Assembly: GCA_900110395.1 (NCBI GenBank) | Contig: FODP01000006.1 | Location: 230,821-294,820, forward strand | DNA length: 64,000 bases | Direction: 5' to 3' | From: Rhodospirillales bacterium URHD0017 | Lineage (GTDB): Bacteria > Pseudomonadota > Alphaproteobacteria > Reyranellales > Reyranellaceae | Position numbers and translations under genes: made by a program | In this document: piece after piece, positions 1,587 through 21,877 of the stretch | Numbering within the stretch: position 1 is the stretch's first letter | How the letters are laid out: each line of letters opens with the position of its first letter | Notes under the pieces: generated by a model | What the model was told of the DNA's origin: nothing | Seen by the model: only the letters and a program-made list of their open reading frames with translations | Database searches by the model: none

Positions 1587-2618
1587 TTACTGGATGACGA
1601 TCTCGACGCGGCGGTTCTGCGGCTCGCGCACGCCGTCGGCGGTCTGGACCAGCAGGCCCTTCTCGCCCATGCCGATCACGCTGATCGCCTGCGCCGGCAC
1701 GCCGTTACGCACCAGGGCGTCCTTGACCGCATTGGCACGACGCAGCGACAGCGCCATGTTGTAGGCTTCCGGGCCCGACGTGTCGGTGTGGCCGGTCGCC
1801 GTGATGCGGGCGTTGCCCTTGCTCTTGAACGCAGCAGCAGCCTGCCCGATCGTCGTCAGCGCCTGCTGGGAGAGGTTCGAGCGGTCCCAGTCGAAGAACA
1901 CCATGAACGACGGCGGCGTCACCACCGGCGGCGGCGGCGGCGGCGGCGGCGGCGCGGCGCCGAACTTCATGTGCAGGCTCAGCATCGCGCTGATGTTGTT
2001 GTTGCTCGGGCTGGTGGTGATCGAATAGCCGAAACCAGACGCCGTGCCGGTGTGCACGAAGTTGGGCGTGGTCGTGCCCATGTAGCGGCCTTCCAGGTTG
2101 ATACGGAAGGTCGAGTCGAGGTTGTAGCCGACGCCGACCATCGCCTGGTAGGCGAACTGGGTGCTGTTGACCGACACGCCGAGGGCGCCCGCGTTCAGGA
2201 ACGCGGCACCGGCACCGGCGCCGATATAGGGCACGAGCGCGTTTCCGGCCATGAAGTCGTAGTAGATGTTGCCCATCACGTTGATCTGCTGGAACACGAT
2301 GCCCGCGCTGCCGGGGGTGCCGCCGAACGTGATGTTGCCGTTGTTGGCGCGGTAGGCGCCTTCGAGCTCGATGCGCGGACCGAGGAAGTCGTAGCCGACG
2401 ACGCCACCGAGGACGTAGCCGGTGTTCCACGACGCGTTCGTCTGGAACGAGCCGGTGAAGAACGGCGCAACGGTGGCCGTCGAGTTGAACGAGCTGTTGA
2501 AGATCCAGTTCAGGCCGCCTTCGAGGCCAACGTAGACGCCACCGGGCTGGAGCGACTGCGCCTGAGCAGCAAACGGAGCCGCGGCAAGCAGCGCAGCACC
2601 AACGACCATCCTCTTCAT
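1587..2618 (-). CDS. OmpA-family outer-membrane beta-barrel protein
   Basis: 343 residues. Residues 1-20 (MKRMVVGAALLAAAPFAAQA) are a Sec signal peptide with an AQA cleavage site. Residues about 21-215 are an aromatic/glycine-rich eight-strand barrel-type domain, then a run of nine prolines makes a linker, and residues about 235-343 are an OmpA C-terminal peptidoglycan-binding domain (FFDWDRSNL, TGHTDTSG, NRRVEI). The family anchors the outer membrane to peptidoglycan. The start is supported by a GGGGAGA ribosome site at 2625-2631. The gene is monocistronic, with its own terminator. The barrel is longer than the classical E. coli OmpA barrel but typical for alphaproteobacterial OmpA/porin-like proteins. 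Family assignment is secure; the specific role is not known. Confidence 0.93.
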   Translation of the reverse strand: MKRMVVGAALLAAAPFAAQAQSLQPGGVYVGLEGGLNWIFNSSFNSTATVAPFFTGSFQTNASWNTGYVLGGVVGYDFLGPRIELEGAYRANNGNITFGGTPGSAGIVFQQINVMGNIYYDFMAGNALVPYIGAGAGAAFLNAGALGVSVNSTQFAYQAMVGVGYNLDSTFRINLEGRYMGTTTPNFVHTGTASGFGYSITTSPSNNNISAMLSLHMKFGAAPPPPPPPPPVVTPPSFMVFFDWDRSNLSQQALTTIGQAAAAFKSKGNARITATGHTDTSGPEAYNMALSLRRANAVKDALVRNGVPAQAISVIGMGEKGLLVQTADGVREPQNRRVEIVIQ

Positions 2619-2879: not shown

Positions 2880-3755
2880 ATGAGCAGCACAGCCGACTAC
2901 ACCCCGCCCCCCGTCTGGACCTGGAACAAGGCGAATGGCGGCCGCTTCGCCAATATCAACCGGCCGATCGCCGGGTCGACCCACGACAAGGAGCTGCCGG
3001 TGGGCCGCCACCCCTTCCAGCTCTACTCGCTGGGCACACCCAACGGGCAGAAGGTCACCATCATGTTCGAGGAGCTGCTGGCCAAGGGCCACAAGGGCGC
3101 CGAGTACGATGCCTGGCTGATCAAGATCGGCGAGGGCGAGCAGTTCGGCTCGGGGTTCGTGGCGGCCAATCCCAATTCCAAGATCCCCGCCCTGATCGAC
3201 CGCAGCGGGCCCAAGCCGGTCCGCGTGTTCGAATCGGGAGCGATGCTGCTCTACCTCGCCGAGAAGTTCGGCGAGTTCGTCCCGAAGGTGACGGACCCGG
3301 CACGCGCCGAGTGCCTGTCGTGGCTGTTCTGGCAGATGGGCAGCGCGCCCTACCTGGGCGGCGGCTTCGGCCACTTCTATGCCTATGCGCCGACCAAGAT
3401 CGAATACGCCATCGACCGCTTCGCGATGGAGACCAAGCGGCAGCTTGACGTGCTCGACCGGCGGCTCGCCGAGAGCAAGTTTCTGGCGGGCGACGACTAC
3501 ACCATCGCCGACATCGCGGTGTGGCCGTGGTACGGCGGCCTGGCCAAGGGCCTGCTCTACGGCGCTGGCGAGTTTTTGGCCGTGACGGAATACAAGAACG
3601 TCCAGCGCTGGGCCGACACGATCGGCGCGCGGCCGGCGGTGAAGCGCGGGCGCATCGTCAACCGCATGCAGGGCGATCCGGCGGCCCAGCTGCGCGAGCG
3701 GCACGATGCGAGCGACTTCGAGTTGAAGACCCAGGACAAGATGGCGGCCGACTGA
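2880..3755 (+). CDS. yghU: YghU-type glutathione-dependent disulfide oxidoreductase (GST family)
   Basis: 291 residues from ATG 2880, chosen because TTGGAGGACC sits 6-8 bases upstream; an earlier in-frame ATG at 2823 lacks a ribosome site. The N-terminal thioredoxin-fold half carries the YghU/Ure2p-like segments (PPPVWTWNKANGGRFANINRP, LYSLGTPNGQKVTIMFEELL, NPNSKIPAL, ESGAMLLYLAEKFG), and the C-terminal half is all-helical (FLAGDDYTIADIAVWPWYGGL is the GST N-capping/hydrophobic staple region). Length matches E. coli YghU (about 288). Known members bind two glutathione molecules and reduce organic hydroperoxides or disulfides. It converges on the DUF899 gene across a palindromic repeat. Confidence 0.93.
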   Translation: MSSTADYTPPPVWTWNKANGGRFANINRPIAGSTHDKELPVGRHPFQLYSLGTPNGQKVTIMFEELLAKGHKGAEYDAWLIKIGEGEQFGSGFVAANPNSKIPALIDRSGPKPVRVFESGAMLLYLAEKFGEFVPKVTDPARAECLSWLFWQMGSAPYLGGGFGHFYAYAPTKIEYAIDRFAMETKRQLDVLDRRLAESKFLAGDDYTIADIAVWPWYGGLAKGLLYGAGEFLAVTEYKNVQRWADTIGARPAVKRGRIVNRMQGDPAAQLRERHDASDFELKTQDKMAAD

Positions 3756-3776
3756 GGGTCCTTCGTCGATCACCGC

Positions 3777-3882
3777 CTCATGCTCCTCTCCCCGCTAGGG
3801 GGAGAGGTTGGGTGAGGGGGCTACACCCGTCGATTCCCCCTCACCTAGCCTCTCCCCCTAGCGGGGGAGAGGAACATGAGGG
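3777..3882. repeat. Large inverted pair of GC-rich palindromes
   Basis: Two palindromes face each other: CCTCTCCCC (3785-3793)/GGGGAGAGG (3799-3807), and CCTCTCCCCC (3849-3858)/GGGGGAGAGG (3863-3872). The two units plus flanks (GGTTGGGTGAGGGGG and its near-complement) are reverse complements of one another, so the whole interval is one imperfect inverted repeat with arms of about 45 bp. A third copy of the unit is at 54721-54742. It sits between two convergent genes and may act as a bidirectional terminator. Confidence 0.85.
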
Positions 3883-3913
3883 ATGCGAAGGAAGACGCCT
3901 TCCAGAGTCAGCA

Positions 3914-4654
3914 TCAGCCGCCGCAGCACGACTTCGCCGGCGCGCTCTCATAGCGATCATGATGACGCACCCAGGCCATGGTGAAGTCGAGCCCGTCCTC
4001 GTCGCGGCCCTTGGGCGTGAGGTCGAGCAGGTTGTAGGTGTGCATCATCACCTCCACGCCGCGGCCGTAGGTCGAGTAGGTGTGGAAGACCACGCCGGCG
4101 TCATCCTTCCAGAAGACGCTGACGCCGGGCATTTCCTGGCCGGGAGGCTTTGAGCCGAAATTGTAGTCGCCCGTGCCGTTCTCCTTCTCCTCGGCCGTGA
4201 AGGTGACGTGGAAGTCCCGGTTGAAGTCGGTGCCGTGCGAGGACACCCAGGGGAACTTCCAGCCCATGCGCTTGCGGAAGCGCTCGATGTCGGCGAGCGG
4301 CGCCAGCGAGACGGCGACGAAGCTCGTGTCGCGCTGCGCCAGGTGTACCAGCGTGGGATCGGTGTGGTCGGCCATGTAGGAGCAGCTCTTGCAGCCCTGC
4401 TCCCAGCCCGGGGGCAGCATGAAGTGCTGCATCACGAGCTGATGGCGGCCGTCGAAGAAGTCGGCCAGCCGGCGCGGCCCCTGCGGCGTGTCGAAGACGT
4501 AGTCCTTGTCCACGCGCACCCACGGCAGGGCGCGGCGCTCGCGGGCGATCTGATCGCGCAGGTGCGTCAGCTCCTTCTCGCGCTCGAGCAGCGCCTTGCG
4601 CGCGGCGAGCCAGTGCTGGGGGGAAACGGCGGAAGGGTTGGCGGTGGTGGTCAT
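3914..4654 (-). CDS. DUF899 family thioredoxin-like protein
   Basis: 246 residues. The start at 4654 is preceded by AAGGAGGACATC. The protein shows the DUF899 layout: an N-terminal helical stretch (ALLEREKELTHLRDQIARERRALP), then a thioredoxin-fold region with FDGRHQLVMQHFMLPPGW, the CKSCSYMAD cysteine pair, SLAPLADIERFRKRMGW and a C-terminal DFTMAWVRHHDRY block. The C-terminus ends in the Cys pair CCGG. Biochemical role in the family is not established; the CxxC suggests redox activity. It is separated from the upstream dioxygenase operon by about 80 bp on the same strand and has its own strong ribosome site. Confidence 0.9.
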   Translation of the reverse strand: MTTTANPSAVSPQHWLAARKALLEREKELTHLRDQIARERRALPWVRVDKDYVFDTPQGPRRLADFFDGRHQLVMQHFMLPPGWEQGCKSCSYMADHTDPTLVHLAQRDTSFVAVSLAPLADIERFRKRMGWKFPWVSSHGTDFNRDFHVTFTAEEKENGTGDYNFGSKPPGQEMPGVSVFWKDDAGVVFHTYSTYGRGVEVMMHTYNLLDLTPKGRDEDGLDFTMAWVRHHDRYESAPAKSCCGG

Positions 4655-4734
4655 GATGTCCTCCTTGAGACTGTCGGGACAAATCTGGGCCCGCCGCCAA
4701 AAGGGTGGGAGTTACAAGTGTGGCGGGATTCCCC

Positions 4735-5805
4735 TCAGCTGGGGGGCGGGGGGCGGGCGCCGTCGCGCTGGACCTGCATGTTGGCCAGGAAGGCGACCAG
4801 GGGATGGATGCCCATCGCCACCATGGCGGGCACGTCGAGCTGCACCAGCGCCGTGCTCTGTTCCGGGGTCAGGGCAAAGCGGGCGGCAAAGCCGTTGGCG
4901 TCGGCGAGGAAGTGGGCCCGCGCCGGCGCCTCATGGGCGAGGCCATGCAAAGCGGTCGTCAGCCCGACCAGCTCCGGCTTGATCGACGGATAGTGCAGGT
5001 CGCGCGCCGCACCGCCACCCTCGAACCAGGCGACCGAGGCGTAGTTGTGATGCCAGCTCGGATCGAGCGAAACGATGTCGGGCTTGCGCTCGCCCAGCGC
5101 ACCGGCGGCGCAGGCCCAGCACCGCAGCTCGATGTTGCCTTTGTCGTCGAGCTCGTCCTCGTCGTAGCCGATCAGGGACTTGAGGTTGCCCGCCGCGATG
5201 CGGGCGAGCGCTGCGCGATCCCAGTCGAGCTCCGGATTGGCGTAGCGATCGGTCCCGGGAAAATGCGACATGCCTCCGCTCGCCAGCACCACGGTCCTGA
5301 GGCCGAGCGCCGTCACCGACCGCGCAATCGCCTCGCCGAAGGCATAGCAGCGCGCCATGGTGGGCTGCGGCGCGAGATAGGCGTTGATGTAGATCGGCAG
5401 CACGGGATCGCTGTGGCCGATATGGCTGAGCGGTATCCCCATGGCATAGTCGAACTTCGCCGTGCTGGTGAAGGCAGGGTCGAAGCCCTGCTTGTAGAGC
5501 TGGCGGACGAGTTCCAGGCCGATCGCTCCGGGGATCTCCCACTTGAAGTCACGGCCGGCGAAGTGGCCGTGCGCGGCGGCGCCGACATGCACGGTGAAGG
5601 GCGGCGCGACGGCGTGGAAGAACTGCTCGGCATGGTCGTTGGAGAAGATGATCCAGAGATCGGGCCTGAGCGCGCGCAGCCTGCTGCCGATCTCCGCCGC
5701 CGTGGCGCGCACCCGCTCGACGGTGCCGCGATCCTCCGTCGGCGGCAGGGTGAAGAACTGAGGCGCATGAGGCAGCAGCGCCCCGCCGACGACGGTCGTG
5801 ACCAT
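4735..5805 (-). CDS. Class III extradiol dioxygenase (LigB-type) with LigA-like C-terminal tail
   Basis: 356 residues. The N-terminal about 275 residues form a LigB domain: GGALLPHAPQFF near the start (metal-binding His), IIFSNDHAEQFF, GIPLSHIGHSDPVLPIYIN and VVLASGGMSHFPG. The family opens catechol-type rings beside the hydroxyls using Fe(II). The last about 80 residues (LADANGFAARFALTPEQ, then MVAMGIHPLVAFLANM) resemble LigA, the small subunit of protocatechuate 4,5-dioxygenase, so both subunits appear to be fused as in gallate-dioxygenase-type enzymes. RBS GGGGGAGATG precedes ATG 5805. It lies 24 bp after the subunit-3-like gene on the same strand and is probably co-transcribed with it and the GMC oxidoreductase. 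Substrate unknown. Confidence 0.85.
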   Translation of the reverse strand: MVTTVVGGALLPHAPQFFTLPPTEDRGTVERVRATAAEIGSRLRALRPDLWIIFSNDHAEQFFHAVAPPFTVHVGAAAHGHFAGRDFKWEIPGAIGLELVRQLYKQGFDPAFTSTAKFDYAMGIPLSHIGHSDPVLPIYINAYLAPQPTMARCYAFGEAIARSVTALGLRTVVLASGGMSHFPGTDRYANPELDWDRAALARIAAGNLKSLIGYDEDELDDKGNIELRCWACAAGALGERKPDIVSLDPSWHHNYASVAWFEGGGAARDLHYPSIKPELVGLTTALHGLAHEAPARAHFLADANGFAARFALTPEQSTALVQLDVPAMVAMGIHPLVAFLANMQVQRDGARPPPPS

Positions 5806-5829
5806 GGCTTCATCTCCCCCCGGACCCGG

Positions 5830-6237
5830 TCACGCCTGCCGCCAGAACGGCTTGCGCTGGCGGGTCGTCTGGAGAATCTCCGGGTCGAACGGCGCCAACG
5901 GGAAGCCTTCCGGCTGCAGCGCGCCGCCCCGCCAGCCCACTCGCCTGTGCACGCGCGGGTCGCCGTAGTAGGCGAGATAGACGAGCTCCAGGACGGCAGT
6001 GAAGGCGGCGCCGTCCGCCGCCTCGAGGTCGCGCAACAACGCGTCCTGTTGCGAAGCCGGCAGGTCGGCGGACCATTTCGGCGCAAGTTTTTCGATGAAG
6101 GTCGCGAGCGCGCGCTGGTACGGCGCGTGCCGCCGCGCCAGCGACTCCACTTCCGGCGCCAAGCCCATCGTGCCCGCGCCCGGCAGATCGTCGATCGGCG
6201 GGACCAGGCGGTCCATCACGGCGCTCAGGGTCATCAT
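5830..6237 (-). CDS. Gluconate 2-dehydrogenase subunit-3-like protein
   Basis: 135 residues. The pattern LSAVMDRLVPP...GAGTMGL, FTAVLELVYLAYYGDPRVHRRVGWRGGALQPEGFP is that of the subunit-3 family, small partners of GMC-type flavin dehydrogenases. The start codon overlaps the stop of the GMC oxidoreductase gene by 4 bp (ATGA), which indicates translational coupling and a two-subunit enzyme. No Tat signal (usual in periplasmic members) is visible, so this pair may be cytoplasmic. Identity of family is fairly sure; substrate cannot be told. Confidence 0.85.
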   Translation of the reverse strand: MMTLSAVMDRLVPPIDDLPGAGTMGLAPEVESLARRHAPYQRALATFIEKLAPKWSADLPASQQDALLRDLEAADGAAFTAVLELVYLAYYGDPRVHRRVGWRGGALQPEGFPLAPFDPEILQTTRQRKPFWRQA

Positions 6238-7832
6238 GGATGTTGTGCCTTGCGGATATGGTCGGCAGCCCGCAGCGCGATCGCCTGCAGCGTGGGGGTC
6301 GGATTGACCGAGGCGCCGGTCACGAACACGCTGCCATCGACGACGTACAGATTGTCGACGTCGTGCGCCCGGCCGCTGTGGTCGACGACCGAGCGGCGCG
6401 GATCGTCGCCCATGCGGGCGGTGCCCATGAGATGCCAGCCCGAGGGCCGCAGCTGCGGCGTCGCTTTCACCGTGTGGGCGCCGGCCGCGTTCAGCACCTT
6501 CTCGGCCTGGCGGCAGGCATGCGCCATCATGCGGGCCGAGTTTTTAGACAGGCGATAGGACACTTTCGGCGCGGCGATGCCGTTGGAGTCCGTCAGCGAG
6601 GCAGAAAGCTCGACGCGATTGTGTTCCTCGGGCAGGTCCTCGCCCAGCGCGATCACGGTGGTCGAATTGCCGAAGCGCATGGCGAAGTCGGCGTGATGGC
6701 GCTCGCCCCAGGCGACCGGGGCCATGGCGAAGCCCAGCGCCGTCCGCGCCGGGCCGGTGCTGCGATTCATCTGGAAGGTGTAGCCGCGCACGAAGCCGCG
6801 CGTGCTGTCGGTCTCGTAGAACTCCTGCGACAGCAGGATGTTGCCGAGCGGACCGCGCCAGGTTGGATCGCTGCCATCGTCGAAGAAGCCGGTAATGGCG
6901 GCGCATGGGTGGAACATCAGGTTGCGGCCGACCAGCCCGCTCGAATTGGCGAGCCCGTTGGGATGACGTTCGCTCGTGGACAGCAGCAGCAGGCGCGGCG
7001 TGCCGATGCCGTTGGCGGCCAGGACCACCAGGCGCGCCGGCTGGGACTGGACGGTGCCGGCGGCATCGAAGTAGCGCGCGCCGGTGGCCCGTCCGCTCGA
7101 ATCGGTGGTGACCTCGAACACCCGCGCGCCGGTGCGCAGCTCGACGCCGTTGGCGATCGCCGCCGGCCAGTAGGTCACATCGGTCGAGGCCTTGGCCTGC
7201 ACGGTGCAGCCGAGGCCGTTGGGGCCGCAGTTGTTGCAGGCCTCCCGGCCGCGATAGGGCACCGAATTGATGTAGGAGTCCGACGGCCACCAGTGCCAGC
7301 CGAGGCTGTCGAAGCCGCGCGCCAGCCGTTCGCCGTCCGGCCCGAGCGGCAGCGACGGCATGGGCCGCGGCGCGCGCGGCGGATTGGCGGGATCTCCGGC
7401 CGTGCCGGAGCAGCCCATCCACTGGTCGTTGAGGTCGTAGTAGGCCTCGAGGTCGACGTACGACAGCGGCCAGTCATCGGCGACGCCGTCCTGGCTGCGG
7501 ACGCGAAAGTCGGAGGGATGGAAGCGCGGCGCATGCGCGGTCCAGTGGACGGTGCTGCCGCCGACCGCGTTGAACATCAGGGGCGTGACGTCGGACGCCG
7601 TGTCGTCGACCGGATAATCTTCCGGCAGCGCGCGCACGTTGGGATTGAAGCTGAAGCTGGTGGCGCCGCGGAACTCCCAGTCGGGGAAGGAAGTCGAATA
7701 CTCGCCGGGCTTGTGCCAGCGGCCCTGCTCGAGACAGACGATGCGGAGACCGGCGTCGGACAGTCGCCAGGCCACTGCCGCCCCCGAGGCGCCGGCGCCA
7801 ATGATCAATATGTCGGCCCGATCGTGTGTCAT
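6234..7832 (-). CDS. GMC-family FAD-dependent oxidoreductase
   Basis: 532 residues from ATG 7832; an upstream in-frame ATG (7946) would add 38 residues unlike the family, whereas MTHDRADILIIGAGASGAA puts the FAD dinucleotide fold (GxGxxG) at the usual distance from the start. Other landmarks: NAVGGSTVHWTAHAPRFHPSDF (flavin-attachment region of the family), a Cys-rich NNCGPNGLGCTVQAKAS segment, VVLAANGIGTPRLLLLS, and the C-terminal His/Asn active-site region LRPSGWHLMGTARMGDD ... VVDGSVFVTGASVNPTPTLQAIALRAAD. With its overlapping small subunit it resembles gluconate/sorbitol-type dehydrogenases; the downstream ring-cleavage dioxygenase suggests use on an aromatic or cyclic alcohol. Confidence 0.92.
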   Translation of the reverse strand: MTHDRADILIIGAGASGAAVAWRLSDAGLRIVCLEQGRWHKPGEYSTSFPDWEFRGATSFSFNPNVRALPEDYPVDDTASDVTPLMFNAVGGSTVHWTAHAPRFHPSDFRVRSQDGVADDWPLSYVDLEAYYDLNDQWMGCSGTAGDPANPPRAPRPMPSLPLGPDGERLARGFDSLGWHWWPSDSYINSVPYRGREACNNCGPNGLGCTVQAKASTDVTYWPAAIANGVELRTGARVFEVTTDSSGRATGARYFDAAGTVQSQPARLVVLAANGIGTPRLLLLSTSERHPNGLANSSGLVGRNLMFHPCAAITGFFDDGSDPTWRGPLGNILLSQEFYETDSTRGFVRGYTFQMNRSTGPARTALGFAMAPVAWGERHHADFAMRFGNSTTVIALGEDLPEEHNRVELSASLTDSNGIAAPKVSYRLSKNSARMMAHACRQAEKVLNAAGAHTVKATPQLRPSGWHLMGTARMGDDPRRSVVDHSGRAHDVDNLYVVDGSVFVTGASVNPTPTLQAIALRAADHIRKAQHP

Positions 7833-8030
7833 GCCCAGTGCCCCCAATCCGTCCGATTCAACGGTCGGGAGCGGCGGAGAGCAAGCTATTGATGCAATGT
7901 TATCTTTTTGTTCGAATGGGGCAGCAGCCGCCTCGCCGCTTGCCATACCAATTGTATCAATCGTCTCAAATTAGACCTGTCAGCGCCTCTGAAGTAAAAT
8001 CCCTCCACCCTCGCATCCTGGAGTCTTTCA

Positions 8031-8930
8031 ATGGCGCGTTCCTCGTGGAAGGGCTACCTCAAGCTGTCGTTGGTCTCGTGCGCCGTCGCGCTCTACAACG
8101 CCTCGTCGGCGTCGGAGCGCGTGTCGTTCAACACGCTGAACCGCAAGACCGGCAACCGGCTGAAGCAGAACATGGTCGATTCGGTGAGCGGCGAGCCGGT
8201 CGATACGGCTGACCGCGTAAAAGGCTACCAGGTCAGCAAGGGCCAGTACGTCATGGTCGAGGACAGCGAGATCGAGGCGCTCAAGCTCGAAAGCACCCGG
8301 ACGATCGAGATCGAGACCTTCGTGCCGGTGGCCGAGATCGACGACATCTATCTCGACAGCCCCTACTACCTCGCCCCCGACGACAAGGTCGCCGAGGAGG
8401 CGTTCGCCGTCATCCGCGAGGCCATGACGCGCAAGAAGATGGCCGGCATCGGCCGCATCGTGCTCGCCCGCCGCGAGCGCATGCTGATGCTGCAGCCGCG
8501 CGACAAGGGCATGCTGGCGACGACCCTGCGCTATCCCTACGAGGTGCGCCAGGGCAGCGAGATCTTCAACGAGATCAGCGACGTCAAGCTGCCGGGCGAG
8601 ATGCTCGACATCGCCCAGGAGATCATCTCGCGCATGTCCGGCCACTTCGAGCCCGACAGCTTCAGCGACCGCTACGAGGAAGCGGTCGTCTCGATGCTGA
8701 AGGCCAAGCAGGCCGGCCAGACCTTCTCGGTGCCGGAGCCCAGCCAGCCGGCCAACGTCGTCAACATCATGGACGCGCTGAAGAAGAGCCTGCAGGTGGC
8801 AGGCGGCGACAGCGCCCTGCGCCGGCCGCGGGCGCCGTCGAAGAAGGCGGAGGAAGCGCCCGCGGCCAAGGAGTCCGCGCGCAAGCCGGCCGCGAAGAAA
8901 CCCGCCGCGCGCAAGGCGGCGCGCGGGTAG
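8031..8930 (+). CDS. ku: Ku protein, non-homologous end joining
   Basis: 299 residues. Typical bacterial Ku homodimer core: RSSWKGYLKLSLVSCAVALYNA at the N-terminus, FNTLNRKTGNRLKQ, VKGYQVSKGQYVMVEDSEIEAL, YLAPDDKVAEEAFAVIREAM, GIGRIVLARRERMLMLQPRDKGM and LRYPYEVR. The last about 45 residues are a Lys/Ala/Arg-rich tail (EEAPAAKESARKPAAKKPAARKAARG), the kind that bridges DNA and recruits LigD. It threads onto broken DNA ends. LigD is about 10 kb away on the same strand, and a MerR/TPR protein gene follows after 11 bp. Confidence 0.96.
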   Translation: MARSSWKGYLKLSLVSCAVALYNASSASERVSFNTLNRKTGNRLKQNMVDSVSGEPVDTADRVKGYQVSKGQYVMVEDSEIEALKLESTRTIEIETFVPVAEIDDIYLDSPYYLAPDDKVAEEAFAVIREAMTRKKMAGIGRIVLARRERMLMLQPRDKGMLATTLRYPYEVRQGSEIFNEISDVKLPGEMLDIAQEIISRMSGHFEPDSFSDRYEEAVVSMLKAKQAGQTFSVPEPSQPANVVNIMDALKKSLQVAGGDSALRRPRAPSKKAEEAPAAKESARKPAAKKPAARKAARG

Positions 8931-8941
8931 CGGCGGAGACC

Positions 8942-10099
8942 GTGCCCCTCGGCCATCATCAGCTCAGAGGGGAGACAGTCTTTCTCGTCGGCCGCATCCA
9001 GGGACTGACGCGGCGGCGCCTCGACATGCTGGTGAAGCTGCGCGAGGCAAAGCTCGCGACGCGGCCCGGCCGCAGCGTCAGCCTGATCGCCTTCGGCCAT
9101 TCGGCGTCGGCGCGCGCGCTCGACGACGGGCGCGTCGCCCTGCCGCCCGGCCTGCCGGCGACGGCGCCGCTGATCAGCGAGAACGTGCTGCGCCGCGCGC
9201 TCGGCCTGCTGCCGCCGCCGGACGACGTCGACCGCAGCATGGGCCGCGACGAGATCGAGCGGCTGGCCGGGCTGTCGCCCAACCTCCTCTCCTGCCTGGT
9301 GCTGTTCGACGTGCTGGAGCCGGTCGACGATCAATTCGCCTGGCGCGACCTCGTCGCCGCGCGCGAGGCGGCGCGTCTGCTGAAGCGCGGCGTGGCGATC
9401 GGCGACGTGCTGGAAGCGGCGGTGGCGCTGCGCCGGCGCGGCACCAACCTCGCCGAGGCGAGATTGACCGAAGGGCCCACGGGCGAGCTTCTGCGCCAGG
9501 TCGGCGGCCAGCTCGCCGAGTTCTCGGGCCAGCTCACCATGTTCGGCAAGGAGGGCCAGCAGAAGCCGCGCAGCATCGACGATCTTCTCGGCGAGGCCGA
9601 GGACGCCGAGCTCGCGGGCGACCACGCCGCGGCCGAGAGCCTCTACACCACGGCGATGCGCGCCGACACCGCCGATCCCGTGCTGCCCTTCAACCTCGGC
9701 AACGTCTTCCAGGCGCAAGGCCGCGGTCCGGAGGCCAAGGTGGCGTGGCAGATCGCGGTGGCGCGCGATCCCGCCTTCGCCGAGGCCTGGTACAACCTCG
9801 CCCTCGCGGCCGAGGACGAGGAGCAGAGCGACCTCGCCATCGCCGAATACCGCCGCGCCGTGAAGGCGCAGCCCGACTGGGGCGATGCGCACTTCAACCT
9901 GGCGCTGCTGCTCACCAAGGTCGAGCGCTGCGACGAGGCGCTGGCGGCGTGGCAGCGCTTCCTCGAGGTCGAGCCGTCGGGCCAGCACGCCGCCACCGCG
10001 CAGAAGGCGATCGCGCTCTGCCGCATGAAGATCCAGCAGGACAAGGCGGCCTCCTCCGCTCCTGCGGAGCTACGGCGGCCAGGACCTCCGGGAGCGTAG
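8942..10099 (+). CDS. Multi-domain protein: BRCT-like head, MerR-type helix-turn-helix, TPR repeats
   Basis: 385 residues from GTG 8942, with GGCGGAGA just upstream (tight spacing, so the start is uncertain). Residues about 10-60 (ETVFLVGRIQGLTRRRLDML ... GRSVSLIAFGHSA) look like a short BRCT-type fold. Residues about 95-165 (MGRDEIERLAGLSPNLLSCLVLFDVLEPVDDQFAWRDLVAAREAARLL) match the MerR DNA-binding pattern. Residues about 215-365 hold at least three TPR units (DPVLPFNLGNVFQAQGR, FAEAWYNLALAAEDEEQ, GDAHFNLALLLTKVERCDEAL). It follows Ku by 11 bp, so it is probably co-expressed. The last 14 codons lie inside a 27-bp-arm inverted repeat. MerR and TPR parts are fairly sure, the BRCT assignment is tentative. 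Confidence 0.75.
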   Translation: MPLGHHQLRGETVFLVGRIQGLTRRRLDMLVKLREAKLATRPGRSVSLIAFGHSASARALDDGRVALPPGLPATAPLISENVLRRALGLLPPPDDVDRSMGRDEIERLAGLSPNLLSCLVLFDVLEPVDDQFAWRDLVAAREAARLLKRGVAIGDVLEAAVALRRRGTNLAEARLTEGPTGELLRQVGGQLAEFSGQLTMFGKEGQQKPRSIDDLLGEAEDAELAGDHAAAESLYTTAMRADTADPVLPFNLGNVFQAQGRGPEAKVAWQIAVARDPAFAEAWYNLALAAEDEEQSDLAIAEYRRAVKAQPDWGDAHFNLALLLTKVERCDEALAAWQRFLEVEPSGQHAATAQKAIALCRMKIQQDKAASSAPAELRRPGPPGA

Positions 10100-10145
10100 G
10101 GGCCACGGCGAAAGCGGCCCTGGCCGCCGTAGCTCCGCAGGAGCG
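10057..10145. repeat. Perfect 27-bp inverted repeat overlapping a gene 3' end
   Basis: Arms at 10057-10083 and 10119-10145 are exact reverse complements; each arm also contains the near-palindrome CTCCTGCGGAG. The 35-bp loop is GC-rich. The left arm supplies the final codons and stop region of the TPR protein, and the right arm ends 10 bp before the stop of the convergent uspA gene, so the element may also terminate transcription from both sides. Confidence 0.95.
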
Positions 10146-18748: not shown

Positions 18749-21700
18749 GTGGCCAAGTCCCTCGACGCCTACAACGCCAAGCGCGACTTCTCCAAGACGC
18801 CCGAGCCGCCGGGCAAGCCGGCGGCGAAGCCGGGCAACGCCTACGTCATCCAGAAGCATGCTGCGCGGCGCCTGCATTATGACTTCCGGCTCGAACTCGA
18901 CGGCGTGCTGAAGAGCTGGGCGGTGCCGGAAGGGCCGAGCCTGATCGCCGGCAAGAAGCGGCTGGCGGTGCTGACCGAGGACCATCCGCTCGACTATGGC
19001 GGCTTCGAAGGCGTCATCCCCGAAGGCCAGTACGGCAGCGGCACCGTCATGATCTGGGACCAGGGCACCTGGACGCCCGACTTCGATCCCGCGTTCGGCT
19101 ATCGCAAAGGGCATCTGAAGTTCCACCTGGCCGGCAAGAAGCTGAAAGGCCAGTGGCATCTCGTGCGCATGAAGCCCCCCTTGCGCGAAAGAGGGCCGCG
19201 CGAGAAGAGCGAGAACTGGCTGCTATTCAAGTCCGACGACGAGGCGGCGCGGCCGGCCGACGCGCCGGACATCCTGGCCGAGAAGCCGCACTCGGCCGCG
19301 ACCGGCCGCAGCATCGAGGCGATCGGCCGCGAGCAGGATCGCGTGTGGGCGTCGGGGCAAGGTGAAGTCACCGAGGCCAGGAAGAAGCGCCGACGTAAGA
19401 CGCCCGTCGATCCCGCTGCTCTGCCGAAGGCGAAGAAGGCGGCGATGCCGGGCTTCATCGAGCCGACCCTGCCGACGGCGACCGAGACGGCGCCTTCAGG
19501 CGGCGGCTGGCTGCACGAGATCAAGCACGACGGCTATCGCCTGCAGGCTCACCTGGAAAATGGGCGGGTGAAATTGTTCAGCCGGCAGGGCCTCGACTGG
19601 ACCGAGCGCTTTCCCGTCGTCGTGCCGGCGCTCGCCGAGGTGCCGGCCAAGGTCGCCATCATCGACGGCGAGGTGCTGGTGCAGACGGCGGCCGGCGTCG
19701 CGAGCTTCGCCATGCTGGTCGACGCCCTGAAGAGCGGCGGCGGCGACATGCTGTTCTATGCCTTCGACCTGCTCTATCTCGACGGCTTCGATCTCAGCGA
19801 GGCGCCGCTTGGTGCGCGCAAGGCGGCGCTGGCCGAGCTTCTGGCCGACGCGGGCGATGCCGGACGCCTGCGCTACAGCGACCACATCGCGGGCGATGGC
19901 GATGCGGTGTTCAGGCATGCGAGCCGGCTCGGCCTCGAAGGCATCATCTCCAAGCAGGCGGCGTCGCCCTATCGTTCGGGACGGGTGAAGACGTGGCTGA
20001 AAGTGAAGTCGAGCCAGAGCGACAGCTTCGTGATCGCGGGCTTCGTGCCCTCGACGGTGGACCCCAAGTCGGTCGGCGCGCTGGTGCTGGGCGAGTATGC
20101 CGGCAGCCGGCTGGTGCCCGTCGGCCATTGCGGCTCCGGCTTCACCGCGGCGAGCGCACGCGAGGTGTGGCGGCGGCTCGATCCCTTGCGCACCACCACG
20201 CCGCCCTTGAAGGACGAAACCGCGTCGCCCAAGGGCGTACGCTGGGTCGAGCCGGTGCTGTCGGCCGAGATCGAATATCGCGGCCGCACCGGCGGCGGGC
20301 TGATACGCCACGCGGTTTTCCGCGAGCTGGTCGAAGGCAAGGTCGCCAACGACCGGCCACGCGAGGCCGCGCCCAGGCCAAGGAGCAAGGCGAAGGGCGA
20401 TGCCGAGCCGACGGTGCGGCTTACGAATCCCGGCCGCCTGCTGTGGCCCGACCAGGGCATCACCAAGCAGGGCCTGGCCGAGTTCTACGGCGAGATCGCC
20501 GACTGGATCCTGCCGCACCTCGTCGGTCGGCCGCTCAGCCTCCTGCGCCATCCCGAAGGCATCAACGAGAAGGGCTTCTTCCAGAAGCATGCGTGGGCGG
20601 GACTCGGCGGCAGCGTGCGCCAGGTGGCGGTGCCCAACGACGAGCAGCCGATGCTGGTGATCGACGATCTGCCGGGCCTGCTCGAGCTGGTTCAGGCCAG
20701 CGTGATCGAGATCCATCCGTGGGGCGCCAGGGCCGAGCGGCCGGAACTGCCCGATCGCGTCACCATCGATCTCGATCCCGGCGACAAGGTGCCGTGGCAG
20801 CGCGTGATCGACGCCGCGCACGACGTGCGTCGCCGGCTGGCGGCGCTGAAGCTGGAAAGCTTCGTGAAGACCACCGGCGGCAAGGGCCTGCACGTGGTGT
20901 TTCCGCTGACGCCGCAGGCAGCCCCTTCGCCAGCAAACTGGGACACCATAAAGACCTTCGCCCAGTCGATCGCCTCGGCCATGGCCGCCGACCGGCCCGA
21001 TCTCTACACCGACAACATGGCCAAGAGCGGCCGACGCGGCCGCATCTATGTCGATTATCTGCGCAACGGCATGGGCGCCACCGCCATCGGCGCCTATTCC
21101 ACGCGCGCACGCGAGGGCGCGCCGGTGTCGGTGCCGCTCGCCTGGGACGAGCTCGGTGAGAACATTCGGTCGAACCATTTCACGCTGCTCAATCTGCCCA
21201 AGCGACTGGCGTTCCTCGATCACGATCCGTGGGAGGGCATCGCCGCGCTGAAGCAGACGCTGCCGGGCGCCGCGGGCATCGCACCATCGAAGGCCGAGCT
21301 CGCCGCCTACTGGAAGAAGGTCGGCAAGCAGGCGCTGGTCCATCTCGCGCGGCGGCCCCTCAGGCTTTCAGGCAATACGCTTGGCAAGCCACCCAAGGTG
21401 GTGCGCAAGGCGGGCGACGACCGTTTCTGGATCGACAGCGTCGATGGCCTCCTGGGCCTGGTCGAGATGGGCGCCGTCGAGCTTTCAGCCACCAACGCCA
21501 CGATCGACGATCCCGAGCGGCCGGACATGATGGTGTTCAGTGTCGCCAATGCCGACACTGCCCTGCGCCTCAGCACGCTCCTGCGAGCCGAGGGGTTGGA
21601 GAGCTGGCCCAAGCTCACCGGCGGGCGCGACCTGCACGTCATGGTGCCGATCGAGCCCGACCTCGATGCCGAGGAAGCGCTGCGCTACAGCGAGCAGCTG

Positions 21701-21877
21701 GCCGGTCGGCTCGCCAAGGCCAACATCGATTGCCGCTACAATAAGCCAGGAGCGACGGCCATTGCCGCCTTCTCGCCCCGTGCCCTGCCCGGCTTCCCGA
21801 TCGCAGCGCCAGTGGAGTGGGAGCAGGTGCGGCGCGGCATCGCGCCCGACGCCTTCACGATCAAGAAGCGCCCCTGA
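18749..21877 (+). CDS. ligD: ATP-dependent DNA ligase LigD with extra C-terminal polymerase-like module
   Basis: 1042 residues from GTG 18749. Order: 3'-phosphoesterase domain about 25-185 (IQKHAARRLHYDFRLELDG, EDHPLDYGGFEGVIPEGQYG); ATP-dependent ligase domain about 235-530 with nucleotidylated Lys in HEIKHDGYR; polymerase/primase domain about 556-830 with the catalytic pair in TIDLDPGD (about 672) and KTTGGKGLHVVFPL. The last about 195 residues (847-1042) repeat parts of the polymerase domain in degenerate form: FWIDSVDGLLGLVEMGAVEL and WPKLTGGRDLHVMVPIEPD match MLVIDDLPGLLELVQASVIEI and the GGKGLH block, but the metal aspartates are replaced (MMVFSVANAD). Usual LigD proteins are about 800-900 residues. 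With Ku it performs NHEJ end processing and sealing. Confidence 0.95.
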   Translation: MAKSLDAYNAKRDFSKTPEPPGKPAAKPGNAYVIQKHAARRLHYDFRLELDGVLKSWAVPEGPSLIAGKKRLAVLTEDHPLDYGGFEGVIPEGQYGSGTVMIWDQGTWTPDFDPAFGYRKGHLKFHLAGKKLKGQWHLVRMKPPLRERGPREKSENWLLFKSDDEAARPADAPDILAEKPHSAATGRSIEAIGREQDRVWASGQGEVTEARKKRRRKTPVDPAALPKAKKAAMPGFIEPTLPTATETAPSGGGWLHEIKHDGYRLQAHLENGRVKLFSRQGLDWTERFPVVVPALAEVPAKVAIIDGEVLVQTAAGVASFAMLVDALKSGGGDMLFYAFDLLYLDGFDLSEAPLGARKAALAELLADAGDAGRLRYSDHIAGDGDAVFRHASRLGLEGIISKQAASPYRSGRVKTWLKVKSSQSDSFVIAGFVPSTVDPKSVGALVLGEYAGSRLVPVGHCGSGFTAASAREVWRRLDPLRTTTPPLKDETASPKGVRWVEPVLSAEIEYRGRTGGGLIRHAVFRELVEGKVANDRPREAAPRPRSKAKGDAEPTVRLTNPGRLLWPDQGITKQGLAEFYGEIADWILPHLVGRPLSLLRHPEGINEKGFFQKHAWAGLGGSVRQVAVPNDEQPMLVIDDLPGLLELVQASVIEIHPWGARAERPELPDRVTIDLDPGDKVPWQRVIDAAHDVRRRLAALKLESFVKTTGGKGLHVVFPLTPQAAPSPANWDTIKTFAQSIASAMAADRPDLYTDNMAKSGRRGRIYVDYLRNGMGATAIGAYSTRAREGAPVSVPLAWDELGENIRSNHFTLLNLPKRLAFLDHDPWEGIAALKQTLPGAAGIAPSKAELAAYWKKVGKQALVHLARRPLRLSGNTLGKPPKVVRKAGDDRFWIDSVDGLLGLVEMGAVELSATNATIDDPERPDMMVFSVANADTALRLSTLLRAEGLESWPKLTGGRDLHVMVPIEPDLDAEEALRYSEQLAGRLAKANIDCRYNKPGATAIAAFSPRALPGFPIAAPVEWEQVRRGIAPDAFTIKKRP

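Follow-up and report, generated by a model that had tools for sequence, protein, structure and literature searches.

Bacterial NHEJ is described, in the available portions of two sources, as the work of Ku plus LigD (PMC3102665, PMC12784961). The accessible part of a study of Sinorhizobium meliloti distinguishes two pathways, Ku2–LigD2 and Ku3/Ku4–LigD4 (PMC12844678), and the available text of PMC3102665 presents a mycobacterial Sir2-like protein as an NHEJ helper beyond Ku and LigD. A comparative survey of NHEJ checked the proximity of ku and ligD, and the words BRCT, TPR, tetratricopeptide and MerR do not occur in its main text (PMC7719229). No partner that brings a BRCT, TPR or MerR part to bacterial Ku is mentioned in the available parts of PMC12844678, PMC5124664, PMC7719229 and PMC10504179, and terms related to such a partner do not occur in PMC8656161. 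The domains of the protein reported here are individually known, and the protein itself is without description in the open full-text literature searched, closed literature lying outside the scope of the search.

The window, a stretch of 64,000 nucleotides from Rhodospirillales bacterium URHD0017, a Reyranella-like alphaproteobacterium with Reyranella soli and Reyranella MAGs among its named close matches, contains a ku gene that is followed closely by an open reading frame (ORF) for a second protein, hereafter the partner. The earlier note, made from the sequence alone, had pointed to an ORF of 385 residues 11 bases 3′ of ku, and the exact spacer is found; the occurrence of ku together with a gene for a BRCT-like, MerR-type and TPR protein is confirmed. 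The features of the locus are as follows.

8031..8930, + strand: ku, encoding a bacterial Ku of 299 amino acids with a Lys/Ala-rich tail (PF02735, TIGR02772)
8931..8941, + strand: 11-base spacer between the ku stop codon and the GTG start of the partner gene, read from the sequence
8942..10099, + strand: partner gene, GTG start, 385 amino acids, with a BRCT-like head followed by a MerR-type fold and then TPRs
8963..9232, + strand: BRCT-like head, residues 8–97 (hmmsearch against PDB sequences, hhalign against LigA BRCTs)
9227..9436, + strand: MerR-type fold with a shortened wing, residues 96–165
9524..9532, + strand: Ser-Gly-Gln, residues 195–197, between the helix–turn–helix (HTH) and the TPRs
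9575..10054, + strand: TPR superhelix, residues 212–371 (Pfam, AlphaFold)
10059–10083 and 10119–10143 (span 10059..10143): arms of a perfect 25-base inverted repeat across the partner stop codon
18749..21877, + strand: ligD, with 3′-phosphoesterase, ligase and primase–polymerase domains, 8.6 kb downstream

In the Pfam scan, Ku matches PF02735 with an E value of 2.5e-47, and in NCBIfam it scores 288.4 bits against the Ku_bact model TIGR02772, the cut-off of which is 150. A GGAG motif lies a short way 5′ of the GTG start of the partner gene. The upstream neighbour of ku, on the opposite strand, encodes a GMC-type oxidoreductase (6234–7946); 3′ of the pair, also on the opposite strand, are genes for a universal stress protein and then for a protein with an adenylate/guanylate cyclase domain. 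The last residues of the partner correspond largely to the left arm of the 25-base inverted repeat and are missing in the aligned relatives. The source genome has four ku genes, one that carries the partner and three that do not, and no second copy of the partner was found in it, the other 12 matches covering the TPR part only. The library models (Pfam, NCBIfam) name no family for the partner beyond TPR. All of its NCBIfam matches shown fall below their cut-offs, three of four scanned relatives have no above-cut-off match among those shown, and in the relative L130 the generic TPR model NF047558 passes its cut-off.

The position next to ku, from which the earlier note had connected the protein with NHEJ, is conserved in relatives. 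The partner with its BRCT-like head (the BRCT form) is immediately preceded by a co-directional ku in all 34 genomes in which it was found, each of them alphaproteobacterial; 17 of these come from a search of 101 genomes, 8 more from a sample of the class and 9 more from a sample of the phylum. In the search of 101 genomes, for which the best 19 candidates per genome were scored, full-length homologues are present in 17 genomes, 13 of the same genus including the source and four of other families, and in each of the 17 the immediate upstream neighbour is a ku with the same orientation. Homologues from the genus (12 genomes besides the source) are 73–90% identical in sequence to the partner, and those from the four other families approximately 29–34%. 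The class sample consisted of 387 evenly drawn genomes that were at least 90% complete, with the best eight candidates per genome scored. It contains the BRCT form in 13 genomes (E of 2.5e-12 or better) and ku in 58; the BRCT form adjoins ku in all 13, among the candidates scored no copy away from ku was found, and in nine of the 13 no ku other than the partner-linked one was found. One of the 13 (G258) is represented by an ORF of 228 residues with BRCT and TPR in which the HTH is undetected, and we therefore regard it as shortened or misassembled. In the phylum sample of 397 genomes (best seven candidates per genome scored), the BRCT form is found in 10 genomes (E of 1e-20 or better), all of the same class, and the nine that are new have ku upstream.

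Counter to a dedicated role, NHEJ genes plainly occur without the partner. Of the 80 ku genes of the class sample, 13 are accompanied by it and 67 show none, the latter including L180 and L188, whose sequences stop within 300 bases downstream of ku so that a partner cannot show; in other classes, 37 of 41 ku loci are without it. Occurrence is patchy even within the source genus.

The neighbourhood of the pair frequently includes ligD. Among the 13 loci of the class sample, ligD is adjacent and co-directional in eight and is fused in frame with ku in one (L194), where phosphoesterase and ligase domains and Ku form a single ORF, which gives nine loci with co-directional adjacent or fused ligD; it is adjacent on the opposite strand in two more, so that, with strand disregarded, ligD is adjacent or fused in 11 of 13. 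At L001, which has short flanks, and at L191 there is no ligD within the span examined. The gene order is ligD–ku–partner at six loci and ku–partner–ligD at two. In the window, ligD does not adjoin the pair, being 8.6 kb away, which counts against a tight link. In two relatives a ligD begins downstream of the pair, at a distance of approximately 4.5 kb in L040 and 3.9 kb in L043, and none is found in the roughly 6 kb examined downstream of it at L039 and L041. In a Pararhizobium record, ligD, ku, the partner, an alpha/beta hydrolase gene and the gene for exodeoxyribonuclease III stand in a row; the partner, annotated only as a tetratricopeptide repeat protein, overlaps ku by one base. Two S. 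meliloti records annotate part of a row of this type, the unannotated ku or ligD being found by sequence, and the partner locus seen here in this species is on pSymB (match at NC_003078.1, 1490717–1491775). Of 83 well-covered plasmid records in the partner search, the five inspected (L126, L127, L128, L130 and L131) all contain ku. The association with ku and ligD is conserved, which places the partner with the bacterial NHEJ machinery by genomic context.

A shorter relative, consisting of a MerR-type HTH and TPRs with no BRCT match (the short form), follows ku in other classes. It is found after four of 41 ku genes (L197, L201, L207 and L234, from three genomes), in a census of 41 non-alphaproteobacterial ku loci that left out at least three genomes (G651, G751 and G780). 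At L197 the short form is positioned before ligD, and a weak HTH match in a further genome (G632) is also a short form. Plasmid copies occur in the Burkholderiales genera Paraburkholderia, Burkholderia, Caballeronia, Cupriavidus and Variovorax; that of Paraburkholderia largidicola has 272 amino acids. In the plasmid set of 33 records outside Sinorhizobium/Ensifer (H81–H113), taken from among the best 60 of 113 matches, ku lies directly upstream of the short form in 31, and in 32 with H84 included, in which ku is inferred across the origin of the record from a partial match at base 1. The remaining plasmid (H111) has upstream only two ku-like remnants, of 22 and 21 residues. Cupriavidus pinatubonensis (H151) carries the same ku, with no short form among the best 60 of 113 matches.

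A quick tree built from 130 Ku rows, with the split ku of G276 excluded, was used to examine the history of the pair. It places all 23 BRCT-partnered Ku proteins within a single alphaproteobacterial branch, which comprises 68 rows and has an SH-aLRT support of 95 under midpoint rooting. The BRCT-partner label needs five changes on this tree, four of them forced by well-supported branches, and the short label needs two; the five changes indicate that the partner has been lost or gained several times. Distances between Ku proteins and between their partners correlate with r of 0.872 over 26 pairs, from loci picked among those available, with none of 2,000 permutations as high, and with r of 0.775 over 21 pairs for the BRCT form only; both values include shared species history.

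These observations bear on the possibility that ku and the TPR gene are merely transferred together as a block and that the TPR protein is unrelated to end joining. The patchy distribution, the plasmid location in many species, the repeated label changes on the Ku tree and the plasmid on which the partner stands beside ku remnants only would all fit such co-transfer. However, linkage to ku has been kept across deep divergence, down to approximately 29–34% identity between partners, while the position of ligD shifts; both architectures show it, as does more than one class, and the BRCT content of the protein fits repair. We therefore consider co-transfer of an unrelated gene improbable. Two other possibilities were rejected. 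For an origin from phages or viruses, no match was found in phages, and none of 89 pattern matches in viral contigs was a confirmed relative. For a defence system, PADLOC was blank on the window protein, and its weak matches in two relatives, one each to the HTH part and the TPR part (E of 2.7e-5 and 4.3e-5), were not taken as meaningful.

The C-terminal half of the partner carries the TPRs. Pfam TPR_1 matches with an E value of 1.5e-12 and further TPR models match as well, which identifies tandem TPRs, and AlphaFold predicts helices over residues 212–371, with pLDDT block means of 73–94 over residues 211–370; the TPR repeats that the note had read from the sequence are thus well founded. The Gly-Gln of the linker that precedes them is shared without exception by the 14 members aligned and is present in both aligned short forms.

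The N-terminal segment, which had been said to resemble a BRCT fold, is supported as BRCT-like at the level of profiles. None of the libraries used, Pfam included, gives a BRCT match in the window protein taken alone, and PF00533 matches weakly in six of 14 family members, with a best E value of 0.0014, which is below the cut-off judged by other bit scores. When a profile of the heads was searched against all PDB sequences (hmmsearch, E of 10 or less), 20 of 20 matches were chains of BRCT proteins, namely LigA-type DNA ligases, RFC1, XRCC1, Rad4 and TopBP1, and the top match was a LigA chain with an E value of 1.4e-4; we take the matched stretches to be the BRCTs of those proteins. Alignment of 26 heads, in which one genome appears twice (L024 and L229), with 28 LigA BRCTs gave a probability of 98.7% over 81 columns, which is the whole head (hhalign), a comparison that is partly non-independent because the LigA rows were chosen by similarity to the head profile. 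Control profiles of Ku, HTH and TPR gave 0.0–0.2% against the heads. In the genome-wide search, further matches of the BRCT–HTH profile were mostly C-terminal BRCTs of LigA-like ORFs.

Several such weak matches were rejected as partners. One (G263) has its BRCT at the end of an ORF truncated by the contig, in a genome without a ku match, and on both counts looks like LigA; the others are long LigA-like ORFs with a C-terminal BRCT, for which the KxDG motif was positive only in part. The exception among the weak BRCT matches is L114, a stand-alone BRCT protein of 105 residues.

The heads differ from LigA BRCTs at one position. The conserved Gly is present in 26 of 26 head rows, and the residue before it is mostly Val or Ile (Val in 17 of 26, including the head of the window protein, and Thr in one), in contrast to the LigA BRCTs compared, in which Thr precedes the Gly in 28 of 28 rows. 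A Ser or Thr at this position is, we presume, the phosphate-pocket residue of BRCT domains and the phosphate binder in LigA. Because the Thr is mostly lost, the head probably does not bind phosphate in the manner of LigA. BRCTs that do not bind phosphate exist, so the loss limits the function of the head rather than its fold. The available part of PMC10504179 connects the phosphate pocket of prokaryotic BRCTs with phosphates found at nicks or ends; it also describes studies in which LigAs without their BRCT showed reduced DNA binding.

The head might instead be another small alpha/beta domain that resembles BRCT without being one. The silence of Pfam on the window protein and the scarcity of Thr before the conserved Gly would suit this reading, as would the AlphaFold models, which are of low confidence in this region: with only seven close sequences, residues 1–209 of the full protein have pLDDT below 50, and the head alone has a mean pLDDT of 53.8. 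Set against this are the exclusively BRCT-protein matches in the PDB, the genome-wide matches, nearly all of which are C-terminal BRCTs of LigA-like ORFs, and the alignment over the whole head at a probability that the three control profiles do not approach. We regard a non-BRCT head as very unlikely.

Evidence for the MerR-type domain comes by way of the short relatives. Pfam MerR is not detected in the window protein. In short forms, MerR_1 matches in five of five (E of 0.1 or less; best E of 8.7e-10), above its cut-off in three (L234, L129 and L201), and the HTH region of the window family aligns with that of the short relatives at 97.1% probability (hhalign), which supports a MerR-type fold at about residues 96–165, where the note had put a MerR HTH (residues 95–165). 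The two forms differ in this domain. Counted across the initial 70 residues of the match, net charge is +5 to +10 in five of five short forms and −4 to +3 in 36 of 36 BRCT forms (−2 in the window protein). Of the 36 BRCT forms, 35 have a wing with a gap of four or five positions, and the wing is longer in the short forms; the exception among BRCT forms, L016, which belongs to the same genus, has five residues at this place. By the indirect measures of charge and wing, the BRCT form does not appear to have a basic DNA-reading HTH and wing, and because of the little or no net positive charge and the wing gap it is unlikely to read DNA. The MerR-type domain of the short form, being basic, probably still binds DNA.

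This difference is central to the main rival reading, in which the partner acts locally as a transcription regulator of the ku operon, its TPRs (and BRCT) sensing a damage signal and controlling expression of ku and ligD. Regulators are often encoded beside their targets, MerR_1 is recognized in every short form scanned, and one plasmid copy (H107) is annotated as a MerR family transcriptional regulator. Nevertheless, in the cases examined the partner gene follows ku and is read in the same direction, never divergently; in the BRCT form, the HTH bears little or no net positive charge and the wing is usually shortened; and the domain that has been added is a BRCT, which is typical of repair proteins. 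We consider the regulator reading unlikely overall. It applies above all to the short form, for which these counterpoints do not weaken it, and is less likely for the BRCT form itself. From its position and domains we infer that the partner is an accessory or regulatory NHEJ factor, as the earlier note proposed, and for the BRCT form the loss of net positive charge (36/36) and usually of part of the wing (35/36) favours the accessory role.

Our preferred reading, which we hold to be reasonably likely, is that the partner is a dedicated accessory protein of one Ku and acts with Ku and LigD at double-strand breaks. The close spacing suggests that the partner would be co-transcribed with its ku. 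The TPR superhelix and the BRCT-like head could serve as surfaces for protein contacts and so keep Ku, LigD or both in place at the break, and the partner might thereby steady synapsis or recruit LigD and end processors such as exodeoxyribonuclease III. In the BRCT form, the MerR-type domain would no longer read DNA and could have become a structural or dimerizing element, and in the short form the HTH may supply an extra DNA contact. The family may therefore touch DNA through its HTH in one branch and proteins through its BRCT in the other. More tentatively, and with somewhat less than even confidence, we propose that in part of the Pseudomonadota NHEJ has three components, the third being a Ku-dedicated scaffold that occurs as a MerR–TPR DNA binder or, in Alphaproteobacteria, as a BRCT form in which DNA reading was exchanged for a BRCT, an arrangement that would be eukaryote-like and independently acquired.

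Because relatives recur next to ku, the partner appears to be an additional component that has been missed in a repair system generally presented as two proteins. A further gene so tied to ku would change how the NHEJ pathway is modelled and could help to account for the several ku genes that some bacteria retain, and it is directly testable in tractable hosts such as S. meliloti.

Among known systems, the BRCT of LigA is like the partner head in that the two align over the whole head. However, the LigA BRCT stands at the end of a ligase and has Thr before the conserved Gly, whereas the head stands at the start of a protein without a recognized enzyme domain and mostly lacks this Thr. MerR-family HTH proteins share the MerR_1 match with the short forms; they usually carry an effector domain, in place of which the partner has TPRs, and the HTH of the BRCT form departs from them in its net charge (−4 to +3) and its usually shortened wing. 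XRCC1 and DNA ligase IV/XRCC4 are eukaryotic BRCT-bearing repair proteins, and they likewise place BRCTs near the ligation or end-joining machinery, a likeness that we offer as a functional analogy only. The mycobacterial NHEJ helper is by its title Sir2-like, and BRCT, MerR and TPR are unmentioned in the available part of its description (PMC3102665). Relative to the two-component system of Ku and LigD, the partner is encoded with ku, often with ligD as well, and adds one gene.

The partner gene, which lies 11 bases after ku and encodes a protein with a BRCT-like head, a MerR-type fold and TPRs, ends within the following sequence feature:

10059-10143: perfect 25-base inverted repeat, spanning the partner's stop codon

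The last residues of the partner are mostly encoded by this repeat, which may be a terminator. Its 22-base core has one further near copy in the genome. The window also encodes a LigD of 1,042 residues (18749-21877, forward strand), in which Pfam identifies two Prim-Pol stretches. In the stop-to-stop open reading frame (ORF), residues ~889-1034, past the main match, match part of the LigD sequence used as the query a second time.

Four ku genes are present in the window's own genome, on contigs C14, C21, C28 and C29. A ligD-like ORF was found within the fetched span of the copies on C28 and C14, and none was found within that of the copy on C21. In genome G276 (locus L089), ku is interrupted by an in-frame stop codon, and on a Paraburkholderia plasmid (L237) two short ku-like pieces (1874-2040, forward strand), with nothing more of ku, adjoin a short partner, which has the MerR-type helix-turn-helix and TPRs without BRCT. 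This arrangement looks as if ku had decayed and the short partner had stayed.

At L194, the phosphoesterase and ligase domains of LigD and, after them, Ku share a single ORF (4767-6920, reverse strand), and the partner gene comes after it; this ORF is either a natural fusion or a join introduced by assembly. In genome G258 (L233), the partner ORF carries BRCT with TPR close behind and no detected helix-turn-helix, the start of the BRCT overlapping the reading frame of ku. Elsewhere in the phylum, a stand-alone BRCT protein of 105 residues was observed (L114, 909-1223, reverse strand; Pfam BRCT E value 4e-6, above the cut-off).

On a Paraburkholderia largidicola plasmid (L129), two LigD-like ORFs (3381-5224, reverse strand) are oriented divergently to ku and span genes that the annotation lists as hypothetical proteins; integrase genes flank this locus, and a gene for an SOS-response-associated peptidase is close by. 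In the Pararhizobium ligD-ku-partner row (L130), the genes after the partner encode a hydrolase of the alpha/beta type (Abhydrolase_11) and a nuclease of the exoIII type (7076-8504), and in S. meliloti xth likewise lies downstream.
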